Source: an uncultured Pelagibacteraceae bacterium
GTDB taxonomy: Bacteria > Pseudomonadota > Alphaproteobacteria > Pelagibacterales > Pelagibacteraceae
DNA length: 64,000 bases
Direction of reading: 5' to 3'
Assembly (NCBI GenBank): GCA_902574035.1
Contig: CACGMC010000002.1
Coordinates: forward strand, 202,865-266,864
This document shows, one piece after another, positions 8,205 to 18,687 of the stretch (position 1 is its first letter; each line of letters begins with the position of its first letter). Below the pieces are notes generated by a model that did not search any database, had not been told where the DNA came from, and saw nothing but the letters and a program-made list of their open reading frames with translations. Both the position numbers and the translations under genes were made by a program.

Positions 8205-10433
8205 TTAAAATGTGGTTCCTAATCTAAAGTTAAAAGATTGATCAATGTCAGTAGTCGCCTTTGAGATATTCTTTGAAAAAATAAATGATAAAGGTCCTGC
8301 AGGAGAAAGCCAGCTTGTATTGACTCCAACTGTGGATCTTATTTTATTTGAATCGTCTATTGTATCGCTGTAGTCAACTCCCCATACATTTCCTGCATCT
8401 AAAAATAATCCTATATCGGCGTTACTTTTTTCTGGGAAAAAATTTGGAAAATTTGCCTCTAAGTTTAAAGATGTAGAGTAGTTTCCACCTATAAAATCAT
8501 CTCCATCTTTTGGTCCTATTTTTCCAGGTTCGAAACCCCTCAGTTTTTTAGAGCTCAAGCTTAGTCTTTGACTAACTCGAACGTCCTCATCACTTATCCC
8601 ATTAACGGCCGTAACGCTAAATTTGAGAGCTCCGATTACATCATCACTGAATTCTTTATAGTGATTTGTTCCAAAACTATTTTTAATATGTGGCTGTTCA
8701 GCATATACTGGAATTTCTTGGTAAAAAGATGTTAAGAATCCTGCTGTTGGCATAAACCTTCTGTCTCTTTTATCTGTGGTAAGGGAATAATCAAATAATA
8801 GGTCAGTTGAACTTCCGGATTGATTTTTAAGTAATTGAGACGCAGTAGTATCAGTAGTCAAGTCATCATATGTAAGGCTAAGACCGGGAGAAAAGAAGAT
8901 ATCTTTAAATCTTTCATAAGATAAACTTACACCTCCTCCTATTACTCTATTTTCATAACCAGAGTCAGATTTGTCATTTTGAATATTTTTTAAATAATAA
9001 GATAACTCTTTACCTGTAAAATTGTAATCTGGATCAGTGTAAGAAATTGAACCTCTTAAAGACTCTTGGCTTACTTCGGCAGCTGCAGAAAGTGTAACAC
9101 CTCTGCCTAACCAATTATTCTCCTTAACGTTAAAGGCAAAAGACCCACCATTAGTTCCTATTCCAGCTCCTGCACTTATTTCTCCAGTAGGCATTTCTTC
9201 TACTTCAATTTTAATTATTTTAGAGTTAGGCATTGATCCTTCAGTAGTAGTTTCTTTAACTGAACCAAAAATTCTTTTTGATTTGATTTGGGAAATTGAT
9301 TTGTCAACTTTTACTTTGCTGTATGGATCTCCTTCATCTAATAGAAGTCCACTTCTTATAACAGTTTCATTAGTTACAGAATTACCTAAAATATCAATTT
9401 TTTCTACAATAATTTTTTGACCTTCAGTGACATTTATTATTAATTCGATTGTATCATTATTTATGATTTCATTAACATTGTGTTCAATGAATTGAAGATC
9501 CTCGTTACTAATAATAAGATCTAATTCATCTAACAGTTTTTTTACTGTAAATGGTGAATAATAACTTCCAATTACCTTTTGATAAATCTTATTAAGAGGT
9601 AAAAAAACCTTCTTATCTAAAACAGGATCAACTTTTGTGCTAATCTTACTTATTTTGTATCTAGTTCCAGCATTAATGTTAAAAGTAATTTCTGCTTGAA
9701 AATCCTCTTTTAGCTCAACTATTTCAGATAAAACTTTTACATCATAATAACCCACAGATTTGTAATAATTTGTAAGTAATCTTTTATCTAACTCAATATT
9801 TGACTGATTTAAGTTAGTATTTCTTGTTAACACTTTCCAAAATTTTGACTCTTGCGAAGTTATTATATCTCTGAGTCTCCTATCTCTTATTTTTCTATCC
9901 CCTTTAAAATTGATTTTTGAAATTTTAGTTTTTTCTCCTTTTTCAATTTCGAAATAGATATTTACTCTTTTCTTTGGAAAATTTTCTACTTTAGATTTTA
10001 CCTCTAAGAAGTTAAAACCGAGTGAAGAATATAATCTTTTAATAATTATTTCATCTTCCACTATTAATGATTTAACAAATGGTCCATTTTTTTTTGATTT
10101 AATATTTTCTTTGATAGCTTCTTTGTACTTGTTAGCATCTTCACCAACAATTATTATTTCATTAATAACTGGGTACTCTACCAATTTGATAAATAAAGTT
10201 TGATCAGTAACTGATATATCAATATTTTCAAAAAAATTTGTAGAATAAAGGTTTTTAATAATTTGATTTATCTTCAAATTGTCAATATTTTGATTTATCG
10301 AGATATCACCATAAACTTTAACGGTTTCATCACTAACTCTTTCGTTCCCTGTGATCTCAATTTTTTTTATGATTTCACCGTTAAGATTACTAGAGAATAA
10401 CAAAAAAGTTATAATTATTAAAATTTTTTTCAT
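8205..10433 (-). CDS. bamA: outer membrane protein assembly factor BamA
   Basis: POTRA repeats and C-terminal barrel ('LRGFEPGKIGPKDGDDFIGGNY', terminal 'SFNFRLGTTF'). Confidence 0.95.
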   Translation of the reverse strand: MKKILIIITFLLFSSNLNGEIIKKIEITGNERVSDETVKVYGDISINQNIDNLKINQIIKNLYSTNFFENIDISVTDQTLFIKLVEYPVINEIIIVGEDANKYKEAIKENIKSKKNGPFVKSLIVEDEIIIKRLYSSLGFNFLEVKSKVENFPKKRVNIYFEIEKGEKTKISKINFKGDRKIRDRRLRDIITSQESKFWKVLTRNTNLNQSNIELDKRLLTNYYKSVGYYDVKVLSEIVELKEDFQAEITFNINAGTRYKISKISTKVDPVLDKKVFLPLNKIYQKVIGSYYSPFTVKKLLDELDLIISNEDLQFIEHNVNEIINNDTIELIINVTEGQKIIVEKIDILGNSVTNETVIRSGLLLDEGDPYSKVKVDKSISQIKSKRIFGSVKETTTEGSMPNSKIIKIEVEEMPTGEISAGAGIGTNGGSFAFNVKENNWLGRGVTLSAAAEVSQESLRGSISYTDPDYNFTGKELSYYLKNIQNDKSDSGYENRVIGGGVSLSYERFKDIFFSPGLSLTYDDLTTDTTASQLLKNQSGSSTDLLFDYSLTTDKRDRRFMPTAGFLTSFYQEIPVYAEQPHIKNSFGTNHYKEFSDDVIGALKFSVTAVNGISDEDVRVSQRLSLSSKKLRGFEPGKIGPKDGDDFIGGNYSTSLNLEANFPNFFPEKSNADIGLFLDAGNVWGVDYSDTIDDSNKIRSTVGVNTSWLSPAGPLSFIFSKNISKATTDIDQSFNFRLGTTF

Positions 10434-11614
10434 TTGTTTTTATCTCTAAAAATTTGCATCGCTCTACTTCTTGTCCAATTATCAATTATTAAAATTGTTT
10501 TTAAATTTGAGGGTTTTTTTATAGCATATTTTCTCATTTTTGGGTCTTTTAAAAGGTCAAATAGATAATTGATAATTGAGCAAAAACTCATATTTTTTTT
10601 TAAAAATTGATCAACAAATATTTCATTAGCTGCATTTAAGATAATTGGCAGTGACGTATATTTGTCCAATATAGGTTTTAGTTTTATAGCTGGAAATTTT
10701 TTAGAATTAACCTTTAAAAAATTTAAATTTTCGACTAGATAATTTTTTTTTGACTTTAAAACTATATTTTTTATTTTTTTAACCTCAAAATTATTTTCAA
10801 ATAAAGCATTGCCTATTGGTATTGACATGTCAGTTTCGAAGTACAAAAATTTGTATAATCCATTTTTAAACTTCACTATCGCATGAACTAAAGATTGCGG
10901 ATGTATTAAAATTTCAATTTTATTAAAATCAATAGAAAATAGTTTTTTGGCCTCAATTACCTCAAAAATTTTATTCATTAAAGTTGCTGAATCTATAGAT
11001 ATTTTTTTTCCCATTTTCCATTTAGGATGATTTATAGCTTGAGATGGTTTGATTTTATTCATCTTGTTTAAAGGATAATTTAAAAATGGTCCTCCTGATG
11101 CTGTTAAATATATTTTTTCAATACTATTTTTGCTTACATTATTTATTAAATTCATTATGGAAAAATGTTCTGAGTCTACAGGCAAAATTTTGACTTTATA
11201 TTTTTTTACAAGTTGTTGGATAACTTCCCATCCACAAATAACAGACTCTTTATTAGCAATGAGTATTTTTTTACTTTTTTTAATTGCACTTAGACTTGGT
11301 TGTAGTCCAGCTATACCAGAAATGGCTAAAATAGAAATATCAGATTTTTTAAATTTATATTTATAAAATTCTTTTGAATTTAATATTGTTACTTTTTTTT
11401 GGGAAAATTCAAACTTAATTTTTTTGTATGTTTTGTCGTCAAAAACTACAAAATAAATTGGTTTATATTTTTTTATTATAAATTTAATTTTTTTATAATT
11501 TTTATACCCAGTTAAAATATAAAACACATATTTTTTATTATTTTTTTCAAATAATTTAAAAGTGGAGTCCCCAATTGAGCCTGTACATCCGTAAATAGAT
11601 AATTTTTTTTTCAT
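10430..11614 (-). CDS. dxr: 1-deoxy-D-xylulose 5-phosphate reductoisomerase
   Basis: 'YGCTGSIGDSTF', 'IANKESVICGW', 'LPVDSEHFSI', 'LTASGGPF'. Confidence 0.95.
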   Translation of the reverse strand: MKKKLSIYGCTGSIGDSTFKLFEKNNKKYVFYILTGYKNYKKIKFIIKKYKPIYFVVFDDKTYKKIKFEFSQKKVTILNSKEFYKYKFKKSDISILAISGIAGLQPSLSAIKKSKKILIANKESVICGWEVIQQLVKKYKVKILPVDSEHFSIMNLINNVSKNSIEKIYLTASGGPFLNYPLNKMNKIKPSQAINHPKWKMGKKISIDSATLMNKIFEVIEAKKLFSIDFNKIEILIHPQSLVHAIVKFKNGLYKFLYFETDMSIPIGNALFENNFEVKKIKNIVLKSKKNYLVENLNFLKVNSKKFPAIKLKPILDKYTSLPIILNAANEIFVDQFLKKNMSFCSIINYLFDLLKDPKMRKYAIKKPSNLKTILIIDNWTRSRAMQIFRDKNK

Positions 11615-12270
11615 TGGGTAAATACTAATATTAAGACGAATGTTAACCCTACAGGTATTCCTAATAAGATTCCATCTATTCTATCAAGTATACCGCCATG
11701 ACCAGGTAAAATATTGCCAGTATTTTTTATTGCAGATTTTCTTTTCAAATAAGAAAAAAATAAATCTCCTAACTGAACACTAAGCGATATAAAAAAACCT
11801 AGAAGAATATTGCTCATAAGTTGGGTATTAAAAATATAACCAAGTAGAAAAGAGCTCATTAAAATTGAAAGTATAAATGAACCTATACTCCCAGATAAAG
11901 TTTTATTTGGACTAATTTTTGTTAATTTTGGTCCCTTAAATATTTTGCCAAATAGAATCCCGCCTATATCTGATGAAATACATATAAGTAAAATAATAAA
12001 TAATATTATTTTAAAATGAATATCATTTAGACCTAAGATAAAAATTAATAAAATAAAGAAGATATATATTGCAAACACACAATTGAGAGAAAAATTTTTA
12101 ATATGATTATTTTTTATTAATTTTTTTGATAATTTTGTAAATTCAACGAAAGATAAAGAAAAAATAACAATAGAAACAAATAGATACACTATTTTGCTTA
12201 GGAACATTAAAATTAATAACAAAAATAAAAATAAACTTGTATTAATTCTTTTGCTTATTTCTGATTTCAA
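11611..12270 (-). CDS. cdsA: phosphatidate cytidylyltransferase
   Basis: Membrane protein; 'SPNKTLSGSIGSF', 'KRKSAIKNTGNILPGHGGILDRIDG'. Confidence 0.93.
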   Translation of the reverse strand: MKSEISKRINTSLFLFLLLILMFLSKIVYLFVSIVIFSLSFVEFTKLSKKLIKNNHIKNFSLNCVFAIYIFFILLIFILGLNDIHFKIILFIILLICISSDIGGILFGKIFKGPKLTKISPNKTLSGSIGSFILSILMSSFLLGYIFNTQLMSNILLGFFISLSVQLGDLFFSYLKRKSAIKNTGNILPGHGGILDRIDGILLGIPVGLTFVLILVFTQ

Positions 12271-12942
12271 TTAGATTCCTCCAAAATTTCTTTTTGCTTT
12301 ATAATAATGTTTTAAAACTTTATGTAAATCTTTTGGTGAAAAGTCAGGCCACAACTTATCTAAGAAATATAACTCTGTATATGCTAGTTGCCATAACATG
12401 AAATTACTTAATCTTTTTTTTCCTCCAGTTCTTATTAAAATATCAGGGTCTGGGATGTTTTTTGTGTATAAATTATTTTGAACATTTTTTTCTGAAATAT
12501 TTTTTGATTTAATTTTTTTGAAAGTACTCATTAATTCTTTTTTGGATCCATAGTTTAAGGCTAGATTAACTAAAATTCTTTTATTTTTTTTTGTTTTTCT
12601 TACTGTTTCTTTTAAAATAAATTTTAGCTTATTAGGTAATTTATTTAATTCTCCGATAATATTTATCTTAATATCGTTATGGATTACATTCTGTAATTCT
12701 GATTTAAAGTAAGAACTTACTAAATTAAATAGAAAATTTATCTCTGTTTTTGGTCTTTTCCAATTTTCAGTTGAAAAAACATAGAATGTTACTACGGGTA
12801 TCTTAAATTTAATTGACGACTCTACTATTTTCTTTACTGTTTTTACCCCAGCATAATGTCCTGAGTTCCTGTTATTTTTTTTTTTCTTCCCCCACCTTCC
12901 ATTTCCATCCATAATGAATGCAACGTGGTTAAGTTTATTCAT
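12271..12942 (-). CDS. uppS: undecaprenyl diphosphate synthase
   Basis: 'HVAFIMDGNGRWGKKK', 'YVFSTENWKRP', 'DILIRTGGKKRLSNFMLWQLAYTELYF'. Confidence 0.95.
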   Translation of the reverse strand: MNKLNHVAFIMDGNGRWGKKKKNNRNSGHYAGVKTVKKIVESSIKFKIPVVTFYVFSTENWKRPKTEINFLFNLVSSYFKSELQNVIHNDIKINIIGELNKLPNKLKFILKETVRKTKKNKRILVNLALNYGSKKELMSTFKKIKSKNISEKNVQNNLYTKNIPDPDILIRTGGKKRLSNFMLWQLAYTELYFLDKLWPDFSPKDLHKVLKHYYKAKRNFGGI

Positions 12943-13499
12943 AATTGTAAGACTTCTTTTTCTTTTTCTGAAGTTATTTTTTCTATGAGAGATATGTGAT
13001 TGTCTGTAAGTTTTTGTGTACTTTTTTCATAATTTTCATTTTCGTCCTCAGTAATTTTCTTTTCTTTAAGTTTTTTCTTCAGTTCTTCATTGGCTTCTCG
13101 TCTAATATTTCTAATTGAAACTTTATTCTTCTCTGTCATACTTTTTAATACTTTAATTAATTCTTTTCTTCTTTCTTCTGTTAAGTCTGGTATTCTTATC
13201 CTAATTATCTGACCATCAATCTGTGGATTAATTCCTAAATCTGATTTTTGAATAGCGCTATCGATTAATCCAACATTTCCTTTGTCCCAAACCTGAACTG
13301 TTATTAGTCTAGCTTCTGGAACTGATATAGTTCCAAGTTGATTAATTGGCATCATTTGTCCATAAACATCTACCTTAATCATATCTAACATAGACGAATT
13401 AGCTCTACCTGTTCTTAAAGTCGAAATTTCTTTTTTAAATGATTGAATTGTTTTATCCATTTTTAAAGAATAATTTTTTTCATTAAATTCACTACTCAT
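12939..13499 (-). CDS. frr: ribosome recycling factor
   Basis: 'LRTGRANSSMLDMIKVDVYG', 'RIRIPDLTEERRKELIKV'. Confidence 0.96.
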   Translation of the reverse strand: MSSEFNEKNYSLKMDKTIQSFKKEISTLRTGRANSSMLDMIKVDVYGQMMPINQLGTISVPEARLITVQVWDKGNVGLIDSAIQKSDLGINPQIDGQIIRIRIPDLTEERRKELIKVLKSMTEKNKVSIRNIRREANEELKKKLKEKKITEDENENYEKSTQKLTDNHISLIEKITSEKEKEVLQL

Positions 13500-14357
13500 T
13501 TAAATACCCTCTCCCACTTTAATTCTTACAAAATCAATGATTTTAATTTCATCATTTTTTTTTCTCTCATTAAGAATATCTGAAACCTTTTTTTTGGGAT
13601 CCATAATCCAAATTTGATTTAAAAGTGTGTTGTCAGATATAAATTTATTAATTTTACCTTTTGATATTTTTTCTGCAATTTCTCCCTTTTTACCTGAATT
13701 AGCTAATTCCGCTTTGATTATTTCTAGCTCTTTATCAATTATTTCTTTTTTCAAATCAGACTTATCAATTGCTAAGGGGCCGGAGGCTGCAATATGCATA
13801 GCAATTTTTTGTCCCAAGTCTTTGTCTTCGTTGTTATTTATTTTCACTATAGAAACAATTTTTCCAATATTTTTTTCAACAGCCGAATGAACATAAAAGT
13901 AATTCTTACCACCTTGTTTATTAAAGAACTTGGATCTTCTAATGGTAATTTTTTCACCGATTTTTGATATAAGTGAAATTAAATTATCATCAACTGACTT
14001 TCCATTTTCCATTTTTGATGATTTTATTTTCTCAATATCACCAGACGACTCAAAATTAATTTTTGAAATTTCTTTACAGAAATTTAGAAAATCTTTATTT
14101 TTAGCTACAAAATCTGTTTCGCTATTTATTTCCACGACAGCTACCTCATCTGCTTTATCAAAAACTAACGCTAAACCTTCTGATGCGTTTCTACTCATTT
14201 TCTTTGAAGCTTTTGCAATTCCTTTTTTTCTCAAAAACTCTATAGATTTTTCTATATCTCCGTTATTTTCTTCAATGGCAGTTTTGCAATCTTTAAAACC
14301 TACACCAGTAAGTTCTCTCAATTTTTTAACGTTTATGAGTAAATCTTTATTTGACAT
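13500..14357 (-). CDS. tsf: translation elongation factor Ts
   Basis: 'LRELTGVGFKDCKTAIEENNGDIEKSIEFLRKKG', 'VEINSETDFVAKN', 'MHIAASGPLAI'. Confidence 0.95.
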   Translation of the reverse strand: MSNKDLLINVKKLRELTGVGFKDCKTAIEENNGDIEKSIEFLRKKGIAKASKKMSRNASEGLALVFDKADEVAVVEINSETDFVAKNKDFLNFCKEISKINFESSGDIEKIKSSKMENGKSVDDNLISLISKIGEKITIRRSKFFNKQGGKNYFYVHSAVEKNIGKIVSIVKINNNEDKDLGQKIAMHIAASGPLAIDKSDLKKEIIDKELEIIKAELANSGKKGEIAEKISKGKINKFISDNTLLNQIWIMDPKKKVSDILNERKKNDEIKIIDFVRIKVGEGI

Positions 14358-14374
14358 TAATCGATATTCTTAAA

Positions 14375-15163
14375 TTATTTTTTTTGAAGATTTTTTTTAT
14401 CTGACTTGATGGTCTTGTTCTTAATCTTTTTTTGATCAATTTTAGACATTTTTTTTTCATCATCGATATTTTTTTCAATAAATTTTTCTGCGTCTTTAAT
14501 AGTGCTTTTTAAAAGATCGCAATATAAATTTATTGACCTTCTTGCATCGTCGTTTCCGGGAATTGGGAAATTTATTCCAGTTGGGTCTGAATTTGTGTCT
14601 AACACGGCAATAATTGGTATATCTAATTTTTTAGCTTCATTTACCGCTAAAGACTCGATATTTGTATCGATTATAAAAATAAGATTTGGAAGTTTTTTCA
14701 TTTCAGATATTCCACCCAATGATCTTTGAAGTTTATCACGTTCTTTTCCAAATTTAATAATTTCTTTTTTTGTAAATCCCATATTATCTTTGGATAATTG
14801 GTCATCGAGATGTTTCAATCTTTTTATTGAATTTTGAATTGTGTTCCAGTTAGTTAACATGCCGCCTAGCCATCGGTAATTAACGTAATATTGAGATGTT
14901 TCTTTAGCAAGATCACTCACCTGTTCTGAAGCTTGTTTTTTTGTTGATACAATCAAAATTTTTCCTCCAGATGCAATACATTTGTGAACTTCAACTAATG
15001 CATTTTTAAGGAAATTAACTGTTTGAGTTAAATCAATTATATGAATAGAATTTTTCTCTCCAAAAATGAAGCTTTTCATTTTTGGATTCCATCTCAAAGT
15101 CTTGTGACCCAGGTGAACACCTGCCTCTAATAATTGTTTTATATTTACTTCTGGTACTTTCAT
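14375..15163 (-). CDS. rpsB: 30S ribosomal protein S2 (start moved to [12 protein letters not shown])
   Basis: '[25 protein letters not shown]', '[15 protein letters not shown]'. The ORF-track extension (15164..15196) lies in the structured leader. Confidence 0.95.
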
Positions 15164-15230
15164 ATTTTTCCGGTTTATCCACCACAACTGCTCCAATTCG
15201 GACCGGGGGGAATTACCCTTAAAGTTGTGT
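15164..15230 (-). ncRNA. Candidate structured cis-regulatory leader of rpsB (nested stems plus pseudoknot over the ribosome-binding region)
   Basis: Minus strand: outer stem CACAACT(15229-15223)/AGTTGTG(15189-15183); inner stem AATTC(15214-15210)/GAATT(15199-15195); loop CCGGT(15206-15202) complementary to ACCGG(15174-15170) just upstream of the ATG at 15163. Confidence 0.7.
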
Positions 15231-15245
15231 GCGAAATTAAGCTTT

Positions 15246-15276: not shown

Positions 15277-18200
15277 TTAAAAAGTTATTTTTTTTACGTA
15301 TTCTCTATTTTTTACTTCGTTAAATAATTTTAAATCAAATTTTCTTGGATTTTCAAGTTTAATCGTAAATTTTGTATCCTTCTGTCTTATTATTAATTGA
15401 ACTTCGGTTTCTCCTTTTTGTTGCAAAAGTTTTTTCAATTCTGAAAAATCTTGTTTATCATCAATTTCAATAAAAACTTTTTTATAATTGTTATTTATTA
15501 AATTATCTAAAGAGATAATTTTCTTAACATTAATTCTTTTTTGATCCCCGCCAGTATCTTTAAACAAAGTAATTACAAAAGACTCGCCCTCCTTAAGAAT
15601 ATCTCTATTTTTAATAAGAATTTCAGAAAAGATGAAAAGTTCGTATTCACCAAAATTATCACTGAATTTAGCAATAGCAAAAGGTGTTCCTTTGGAACTT
15701 TTTTTTTCTTGTATAGACATTAAAGTGCCTGCGATTAAACCATCATTTTTTTTATCTAAAATAAACTCTCTATAGGGTTTTATATTCAGTTGTGAAAAAA
15801 TATTTCTATAATTATTTAATGGATGATCAGAGATATAAAAGCCTAGTGATTTAAATTCCTCACTTAGAAGTTCTTTCGTGCTCCATTTTTCATCAGTATT
15901 GAGTCTTAATTTCTCAAGTTTGTCTTCATCTACATCATCAAATAAATTACTTTGTTTACTGATTTTTTCTTCATGATATATCTTGTTTAGTTGAATTAAT
16001 TTTGGAATTGTAACAAATATTCCCTTTCTGTTTTTTTCAAGTTTATCAAAGGCACCAGATTTTACTAACCCTTCTAATTGTAATTTATTAATATCTTTTG
16101 GATTAACTCTTTTGATAAAATCCATAAGCGATTTGAATTTTCCATTCGACTCCCTTTCTTTGACTAGATTAGAGATAGCTTCACTTCCTACATTTTTTAT
16201 AGCGCCTAACCCATACAAAATAGTATTTTTGGAAGTTTTAAAATCTCCAAAACACTCATTTATATCCGGTCTTACTACACTCACTTCAAGTCTTTTTAAT
16301 TCATCGACAAATTCCCTTAATTTATTCGTGTTTGTTGTTTCAGTAGACATTGTTGACGCAATAAATTCCTCTGTATGATAAGTTTTTAAATAAGCTGTCT
16401 GGAAAGCAATTAAGGCATATGCTGCAGCATGACTTTTGTTAAATCCATATTCTGCAAATGGCTCAATTTTAGTGAAAATATAATTAGCTAAATCTTTTTT
16501 AATACCATTTTTAATGGCTCCATTTACAAATCTTTCTTTTTGTTTTTCTAATTCAGCTCGTTTTTTCTTACCCATTGCTCTACGTAAAATATCAGCTTCT
16601 CCTGCGGAAAAACCGGCTAAAGTTTGAGCAATTTGCATTACCTGTTCTTGGTATATTATTATTCCGTAAGTTGTTTCCAATATTTTTTTTAAACTTGGGT
16701 GAATATAATCAGGTTCTCTGAGACCATTTTTACAATCATTATATATTGGTATATTGCTCATCGGACCAGGCCTATACAAAGCAACCAATGCGATTATATC
16801 GTCAAATTTATTTGGCTTCATTTGTTTTATAGCTTCTCTCATCCCAGTGCTCTCTAATTGGAACAGGCCTGTCGTTTCGCCTGTAGATAAAAGATCAAAT
16901 ACTTTTTTATCTTTTAAATTAATTTTTGTTATATCTAATACTAAATTTTTTTTATTTATCATTTTTACTGTTTTATCTATTACTGTTAACGTTTTTAAAC
17001 CAAGTAAATCGAATTTTACGAGACCAGCATTTTCTGATGAATACATGTCATATTGAGTGGATGGTAAAGGTAATTTTGATGAATGATCAATATAGAGTGG
17101 TATTTGATCAGAAAGTTCTTTTCCTGCAATTACGACTCCCGCAGCATGCGTAGCCATATTTCTATTTAAGCCCTCTAATTGCAGAGACAATTCAATTAAT
17201 TTTTTCACTTTTAAACTTTGATTTATTTCATTTTGAAATCGCGGTTCTCTATTAATAGACTCTTGTAAAGTTAAAGGTCGAGATGGATCAAAAGGTATCA
17301 TTTTACAAATCTTATCTACATGACCATAGGGTAGTCCTAAAACACGCCCAATGTCTCTTAAAGCCATTCTAGCTTTTAATTTGCCAAAAGTGATTATATG
17401 GGCTACGCCTCTACCATATTTCTGTTTAAGATATTCAAAGACTTTGTCTCTTTTTTCCTCACAAAAATCTATGTCAAAATCTGGCATTGAAATACGATCG
17501 GGATTTAAAAATCGCTCGAAAATTAAATCAAATTCGATTGGATCTAAATCAGTTATATCAAGACTATAAGCAACCAGTGAGCCTGCTCCTGAACCTCTTC
17601 CAGGACCTACTGGTATTGCATTTTTCTTCGCCCATCTAATATAGTCTGAGACTATTAAAAAATAACTTGGATAATTCATTGAGTTTATAATATTAATTTC
17701 ATGATTTAATCTGTCATAATATAACTGTTTTAATCTTTCTTGATCTTTATCCTTGTTTTTTAAAAAGATAAAATTTTTTAGTCTCTTTTCTAAACCTAAT
17801 TGAGCTTGTATTAATAATTCTTGCTCTGCAGTTTTATTTTCATTTAAAGCAAGGGTTGGTAAAAGAGGTTTAGTTTTTTTTGGTTTAAAGCTAAATTTTT
17901 TTGGAAAATTGTAATTATTTTCTAAAGCTTCTGGGATGTCTTTAAATAAATCTTTTAAATCACTTAAATCTCTTAAAAAATGGTTATTTTTTAATTTTTT
18001 TCTATTTTTATCGTCTACAAATGTTTTTTCTCCAACACAAATCAGTGCATCATGAGCTTCGGCCATATCTTTTTTAATATAAAAAACTTCTTGAGAAGAA
18101 ATTAGGGGAACCATCAGTTCAGATGAGATTGAAATTAAAAAATCTTCATAATTTTTCTCATCGTCCTCTTGATGTCTTTGAATTTCTAAATAAAAATTAT

Positions 18201-18687
18201 CTTTAAAAGTGTCATTAAGTTTTCTTAATAAAACTTTAATTAAATTTAATTTATTCAATTTAAATAATTTACCGAATAAATCATATATAGTTCCAGATAA
18301 AACCAGTAACCCACTTGAATTATCAAATAAATTTTTTAAATCACAGTAAGGTTCGGAATTGGCTTCACTCTCTAAATAGCTTAAAGATGATAATTTGGTT
18401 AAATTTTTATATCCCTCTTTTGTTTTAGCAAATATTGGTAATTTTCCTATTAAATTTTCAACTTTAAAATTTATTTGTGATCCGATAATTGGTTGGGTCC
18501 CTACTTTGCTAATCTTTTCTGCAAACTCCAAAGCGCCACATAAATTTAGACTATCACACAATCCTATAGCTTTAATTTTATTACTTTTGCAATATTCTGC
18601 TAATTCTTCAATTTTGACTGCGCCTTCACAAATAGAATACTGGGAGTGAATTTTAAAATTAATAAAATGAGGCTCATTTTTTTCCAT
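15277..18687 (-). CDS. dnaE: DNA polymerase III subunit alpha
   Basis: PHP domain start; 'GPGRGSGAGSLVAYSLDITDLDPIEFDLIFERFLNPDRISMPDFDIDFC'; 'RRAMGKKKRAELEKQ'. Confidence 0.96.
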   Translation of the reverse strand: MEKNEPHFINFKIHSQYSICEGAVKIEELAEYCKSNKIKAIGLCDSLNLCGALEFAEKISKVGTQPIIGSQINFKVENLIGKLPIFAKTKEGYKNLTKLSSLSYLESEANSEPYCDLKNLFDNSSGLLVLSGTIYDLFGKLFKLNKLNLIKVLLRKLNDTFKDNFYLEIQRHQEDDEKNYEDFLISISSELMVPLISSQEVFYIKKDMAEAHDALICVGEKTFVDDKNRKKLKNNHFLRDLSDLKDLFKDIPEALENNYNFPKKFSFKPKKTKPLLPTLALNENKTAEQELLIQAQLGLEKRLKNFIFLKNKDKDQERLKQLYYDRLNHEINIINSMNYPSYFLIVSDYIRWAKKNAIPVGPGRGSGAGSLVAYSLDITDLDPIEFDLIFERFLNPDRISMPDFDIDFCEEKRDKVFEYLKQKYGRGVAHIITFGKLKARMALRDIGRVLGLPYGHVDKICKMIPFDPSRPLTLQESINREPRFQNEINQSLKVKKLIELSLQLEGLNRNMATHAAGVVIAGKELSDQIPLYIDHSSKLPLPSTQYDMYSSENAGLVKFDLLGLKTLTVIDKTVKMINKKNLVLDITKINLKDKKVFDLLSTGETTGLFQLESTGMREAIKQMKPNKFDDIIALVALYRPGPMSNIPIYNDCKNGLREPDYIHPSLKKILETTYGIIIYQEQVMQIAQTLAGFSAGEADILRRAMGKKKRAELEKQKERFVNGAIKNGIKKDLANYIFTKIEPFAEYGFNKSHAAAYALIAFQTAYLKTYHTEEFIASTMSTETTNTNKLREFVDELKRLEVSVVRPDINECFGDFKTSKNTILYGLGAIKNVGSEAISNLVKERESNGKFKSLMDFIKRVNPKDINKLQLEGLVKSGAFDKLEKNRKGIFVTIPKLIQLNKIYHEEKISKQSNLFDDVDEDKLEKLRLNTDEKWSTKELLSEEFKSLGFYISDHPLNNYRNIFSQLNIKPYREFILDKKNDGLIAGTLMSIQEKKSSKGTPFAIAKFSDNFGEYELFIFSEILIKNRDILKEGESFVITLFKDTGGDQKRINVKKIISLDNLINNNYKKVFIEIDDKQDFSELKKLLQQKGETEVQLIIRQKDTKFTIKLENPRKFDLKLFNEVKNREYVKKITF

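Follow-up and report, generated by a model that had tools for sequence, protein, structure and literature searches.

The window, by which we mean the whole stretch of 64,000 nucleotides analysed here, carries on its minus strand a structured RNA element between dnaE (15277-18687) and the start codon of rpsB (ATG, 15163-15161). This element is the already known rpsB motif, published from Candidatus Pelagibacter ubique HTCC1062 (Meyer et al. 2009, PMC2704228). By analogy with the homologous leader of Escherichia coli, we hold it very probable that the element acts as a repressor of rpsB-tsf that responds to ribosomal protein S2, probably together with S1. In the Pelagibacter family, its pseudoknot may do so by hiding the ribosome site. 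It leads the operon rpsB-tsf-frr-uppS-cdsA-dxr, also on the minus strand; in this operon (10430-15163), pyrH is missing between tsf and frr, an arrangement that differs from that of E. coli. The parts of the element are listed in Table 1.

Table 1. Parts of the rpsB leader and the first two genes of its operon, in window coordinates
Feature	Position	Strand	Evidence
rpsB leader element (rpsB motif, RF01815-like)	15164..15233; Rfam match 15155-15233	-	RF01815 34.7 bits; model R1 73.9 bits
CGCA: bulged A15230 and lower P1 5' side	15230..15233	-	invariant C-G pairs
P1 5' strand CACAACT	15223..15229	-	sequence reading; covarying pairs, pair 6 E=0.042
P2 5' strand GGG	15216..15218	-	pair 3 compensated in the family, E=0.0017
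P2 3' strand CCC	15208..15210	-	covariation test
Pseudoknot 5' strand CCGGT, junction J2-3	15202..15206	-	family-invariant; covaries across Proteobacteria
P3 5' strand CC (2-bp helix)	15200..15201	-	2-bp P3 of Ca. P. ubique (PMC2704228)
P3 3' strand GG	15193..15194	-	PMC2704228 and family comparison
P1 3' strand AGTTGTG	15183..15189	-	sequence reading; covarying pairs in 72-sequence alignment
Lower P1 3' side GTG	15180..15182	-	proteobacterial leader comparison
Pseudoknot 3' strand ACCGG, 6 nt before the start codon	15170..15174	-	sequence reading; comparison
rpsB, ribosomal protein S2, ATG start	14375..15163	-	TIGR01011 310.7 bits
tsf, elongation factor Ts, second operon gene	13500..14357	-	TIGR00116 253.8 bits

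The initial annotation, made from the sequence alone, had proposed a structured, pseudoknotted rpsB leader and had pointed to comparative work on Pelagibacter. Both hold: the paper exists and describes this very element, and the leader matches both the published motif and RF01815. Meyer et al. place the motif of HTCC1062 between dnaE and rpsB, in an intergenic region at 873155-873283, and we locate the element at 873205-873286; their published fold consists of P1, a 3-bp P2, a 2-bp P3 and a pseudoknot formed by junction J2-3 (PMC2704228). The window leader shares with it the organism family, the position directly upstream of rpsB and after dnaE, P1, the two short helices at the same lengths and a 5-bp J2-3 pseudoknot, while its sequence departs in detail. 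A published regulatory RNA is thus confirmed in another genome, and the fold proposed in the initial annotation is corrected.

The Rfam scan that had been suggested gives a mixed answer. RF01815 does match, with an E-value of 5.4e-5, but its 34.7 bits fall below the gathering score of 40, hence the element is missing from a standard Rfam scan. Such a score is normal for the clade, because the leader of HTCC1062 itself reaches only 33.3 bits, so that the gathering score leaves out the very genome in which the motif was discovered. The threshold is too strict for the SAR11 clade, which limits the formal Rfam assignment and not the homology. The related family RF00127 (t44) has no match to the window at E<=10; the E. 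coli leader scores 83.5 bits with RF00127 and is not matched by RF01815. Homologous rpsB leaders are thus divided between two Rfam families that have no common clan and are both typed as sRNA genes.

Two of the pairings first read on the minus strand stand: the 7-bp outer stem, here P1, and the complementarity between CCGGT and the ACCGG preceding the start codon. What that reading had overlooked are the helices P2 and P3, the bulged A15230, which is conserved, and lower P1. In lower P1, the pairs C15231-G15182 and C15233-G15180 are both invariant in 189 proteobacterial leaders; the middle pair is a G.U in the window leader and a mismatch in many relatives. The signal for P3 is weak in the Pelagibacter family.

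An inner stem proposed inside P1, pairing AATTC (15214-15210) with GAATT (15199-15195), had to be dropped, and P2 and P3 stand in its place. A model made of P1 and this stem, closing a loop of 10 nucleotides, retains almost no credence: the two strings are present and complementary in this single sequence, but all five pairs form in the homologous register in only 1 of 86 distinct family leaders. Allowing a displacement of up to 2 nt, they form in 14 of the 86, against 12.5% for swapped sequences, which is no excess. The stem also competes with P2, from which it takes C15210; this helix covaries, and 98-100% of relatives form its first three pairs. The evaluated energy of the rejected model is also worse, at -10.4 kcal/mol against -14.1 kcal/mol for P1, P2 and P3 together.

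Taken as a single sequence, the element gives a modest signal, and the case for it rests on conservation among relatives. After dinucleotide shuffling of the 113-nt intergenic stretch, a 7-bp stem closing a suitable loop is present in 26% of the sequences, and such a stem together with a GC-rich 5-bp pseudoknot in 2.8%. The folding energy of the element is not unusual (z about -1), and we set it aside as uninformative. The leader was rightly described as a GC-rich island: positions 15164-15233 have a GC content of 48.6%, against 16.3% for the remaining intergenic stretch and 28.9% for the window. The perfect TATAAT noted upstream of the element, at 15251-15246, would suggest a promoter, which comparison does not bear out: a -10-like hexamer lies 15-32 nt upstream of the element in 20% of relatives, against 34.5% in shuffled DNA, so that the hexamer is not conserved beyond chance, and it is not among the promoters listed by a sigma-70 scan.

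Conservation of the element is extensive. RF01815 is widely distributed in Alphaproteobacteria, in 245 of 388 genomes. Within the Pelagibacter family, P1, CCGGT and ACCGG (once ACCGA) are present in all 91 leaders examined, and a search of 99 genomes finds the element in each of the 40 that are more than 90% complete, with the strong matches in front of rpsB. A model built on the family itself, R1, has this locus as its sole match in the window's genome. Weaker matches elsewhere were rejected as second copies: L236-L238, the three best extra hits of the model (24-26 bits, near 1498-1613 on the minus strand), come from three genomes. They directly follow pheT and fall in the first part of lepA, within its coding sequence for the GTPase P-loop (for L236 the open frame shows this), and we judged them chance resemblances in a conserved gene; L239 is an unrelated partial match.

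In an alignment of 72 family sequences, 97.4% of the cells of P1 and the pseudoknot are paired, most of the unpaired pseudoknot cells stemming from seven rows that are shifted by one base, and the covariation score is 0.203, against 0.071 when shuffled and at most 0.081 when slid. Individual pairs were assessed with a phylogeny-preserving test of our own, modelled on R-scape. Pair 3 of P2, which alternates between G-C, T-A and C-G with compensation, reaches the floor of the simulation; pair 6 of P1 is also significant, as had been asked of the outer stem, and significance is confined to pairs of the structure. For P1 we rely on this family run, in which anchoring did not use P1 complementarity; the P1 E-values of the set covering all Proteobacteria are biased, the leaders there being picked by that complementarity. 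In genus g280 of the family (L072, L091 and L098), the register of P1 seems to be shifted, to GAGGAA/TTCCTC, which looks like the loss of one base of the 5' strand.

For the pseudoknot, the same check succeeds at one scale and not at the other. Except for one broken end pair, the pseudoknot never varies within the family, and therefore cannot covary there. Across Proteobacteria it is compensated: Alphaproteobacteria mostly have CCGGU/ACCGG and some have CUGGU/ACCAG, and further pairings are GGGGU/ACCCC (E. coli and others), UGGGU/ACCCA, AGGGU/ACCCU and AUUGU/ACAAU. At position 2 the test yields E=0.018, with the 5' strand placed by its GU-containing end, not by complementarity at positions 1-2. 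The AUUGU/ACAAU type occurs in proteobacterial family f174 (L175, L181, L182, L191, L192, L194 and others), where three of the five positions have changed, with compensation.

What does such a leader do? Its counterpart before rpsB-tsf in E. coli, also known as t44 or tff, has the same P1 with a CNCA bulge element, the same GNGG, and a J2-3 pseudoknot (GGGGU/ACCCC); it differs in that its hairpin is longer and its pseudoknot lies far ahead of the start codon, with GAGG as a distinct Shine-Dalgarno sequence in the interval. There, excess S2, helped by S1, represses the translation of rpsB-tsf through the leader; the operator structure does not include the ribosome-binding site, and deletion of a conserved bulge, far upstream of that site, may eliminate regulation (PMC10931766). 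For the window leader, S2 autoregulation is the likeliest reading because its homologue responds to S2 in vivo. The invariant core that the two have in common points to the same ligand in SAR11. Comparison shows that the rpsB-tsf mRNA begins with P1, with its bulged A, capped by the short P2 and P3, and that the P2-P3 junction pairs with the ACCGG just before the start codon. If E. coli is a guide, S2 made beyond the supply of 30S subunits would bind and stabilise this fold, probably with S1, of which a homologue is found in the window's genome, and the bound fold would repress rpsB and, downstream, tsf. The leaders of S15 (rpsO) and S4 (alpha operon) similarly combine autogenous translational control with a pseudoknot near the ribosome-binding site (PMC10931766), with other RNA folds and other protein ligands.

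The structure could instead be mainly an element of translation initiation or of stability, for instance a standby site for S1 or the 30S subunit or a protection of the 5' end, no longer regulated by S2 in this lineage. In favour of this, regulation is often lost in streamlined genomes, and within the family the pseudoknot shows no variation and sits at the ribosome landing site. S1 also binds pseudoknots with high affinity (PMC10931766). We nevertheless judge this unlikely: the bulged A, the lower C-G pairs and the GU/AC end of the pseudoknot form an invariant core shared with gammaproteobacterial leaders, among them the S2-responsive one of E. coli (PMC10931766), and it is rpsB that follows the strong matches. 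That the leader answers to another ligand, a metabolite or a different ribosomal protein, is highly improbable: the literature seems to hold no ligand test in any alphaproteobacterium, but the association with rpsB is tight, the homologous E. coli leader is regulated by S2, and the junction is very short in SAR11.

Repression by S2 remains our preferred reading. Since the operator of E. coli does not include the ribosome-binding site, the occlusion of ribosome binding is not a step that can be transferred by homology, nor should it be extended to the E. coli leader. It is plausible in the Pelagibacter family because the pseudoknot strand there occupies the position of the Shine-Dalgarno sequence, so that its pairing should directly hide the ribosome landing site. 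In the family, 3-12 nt (mode 8) separate the 3' strand of the pseudoknot from the start codon, against 13-23 nt in 69 of 70 leaders of other Alphaproteobacteria, the exception being L131, at 9 nt. With the pseudoknot strand and all upstream sequence masked, a pairing with the anti-Shine-Dalgarno of -4.5 kcal/mol or better is kept by 7% of the family leaders, against 87% of the other alphaproteobacterial leaders; the anti-Shine-Dalgarno (...GGATTACCTCCTTT) was taken from a 16S of the same genus, that of the window's genome not having been found.

We reject the idea that small genomes in general compress this spacer: all 10 leaders from other small-genome Alphaproteobacteria keep a spacing of 14-23 nt and a Shine-Dalgarno sequence, although two of these leaders have a total length that hardly exceeds that of the SAR11 form. 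The difference in spacing is confined to one clade, and is therefore probably the result of one event. It is conceivable, though we put it at somewhat less than even, that the Pelagibacter-family leader is a derived variant whose spacer shrank, whose separate Shine-Dalgarno sequence was lost, and which became a direct masking switch, unlike that of E. coli. On the other side, 20% of the open reading frames of the window reach -4.5 kcal/mol of Shine-Dalgarno pairing, against 10% when shuffled; such use is weak, so that hiding a Shine-Dalgarno site may matter little.

The placement of the pseudoknot at the Shine-Dalgarno position in this family seems not to have been described in the literature, and suggests a modest addition to it; the rpsB section of PMC2704228 does not remark on how far the pseudoknot lies from the start codon. 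If the masking proposal is true, an operator that lay upstream came, in SAR11, to cover the ribosome landing site directly. This would bear on the mechanism of autoregulation by S2, which according to a 2024 review is unclear even for E. coli. One last observation concerns annotation: the reading frame of rpsB is open upstream of its ATG as far as a TTG at 15196, inside the leader, so that automatic gene prediction could place the start of rpsB too early, within the structured RNA (15164-15196).
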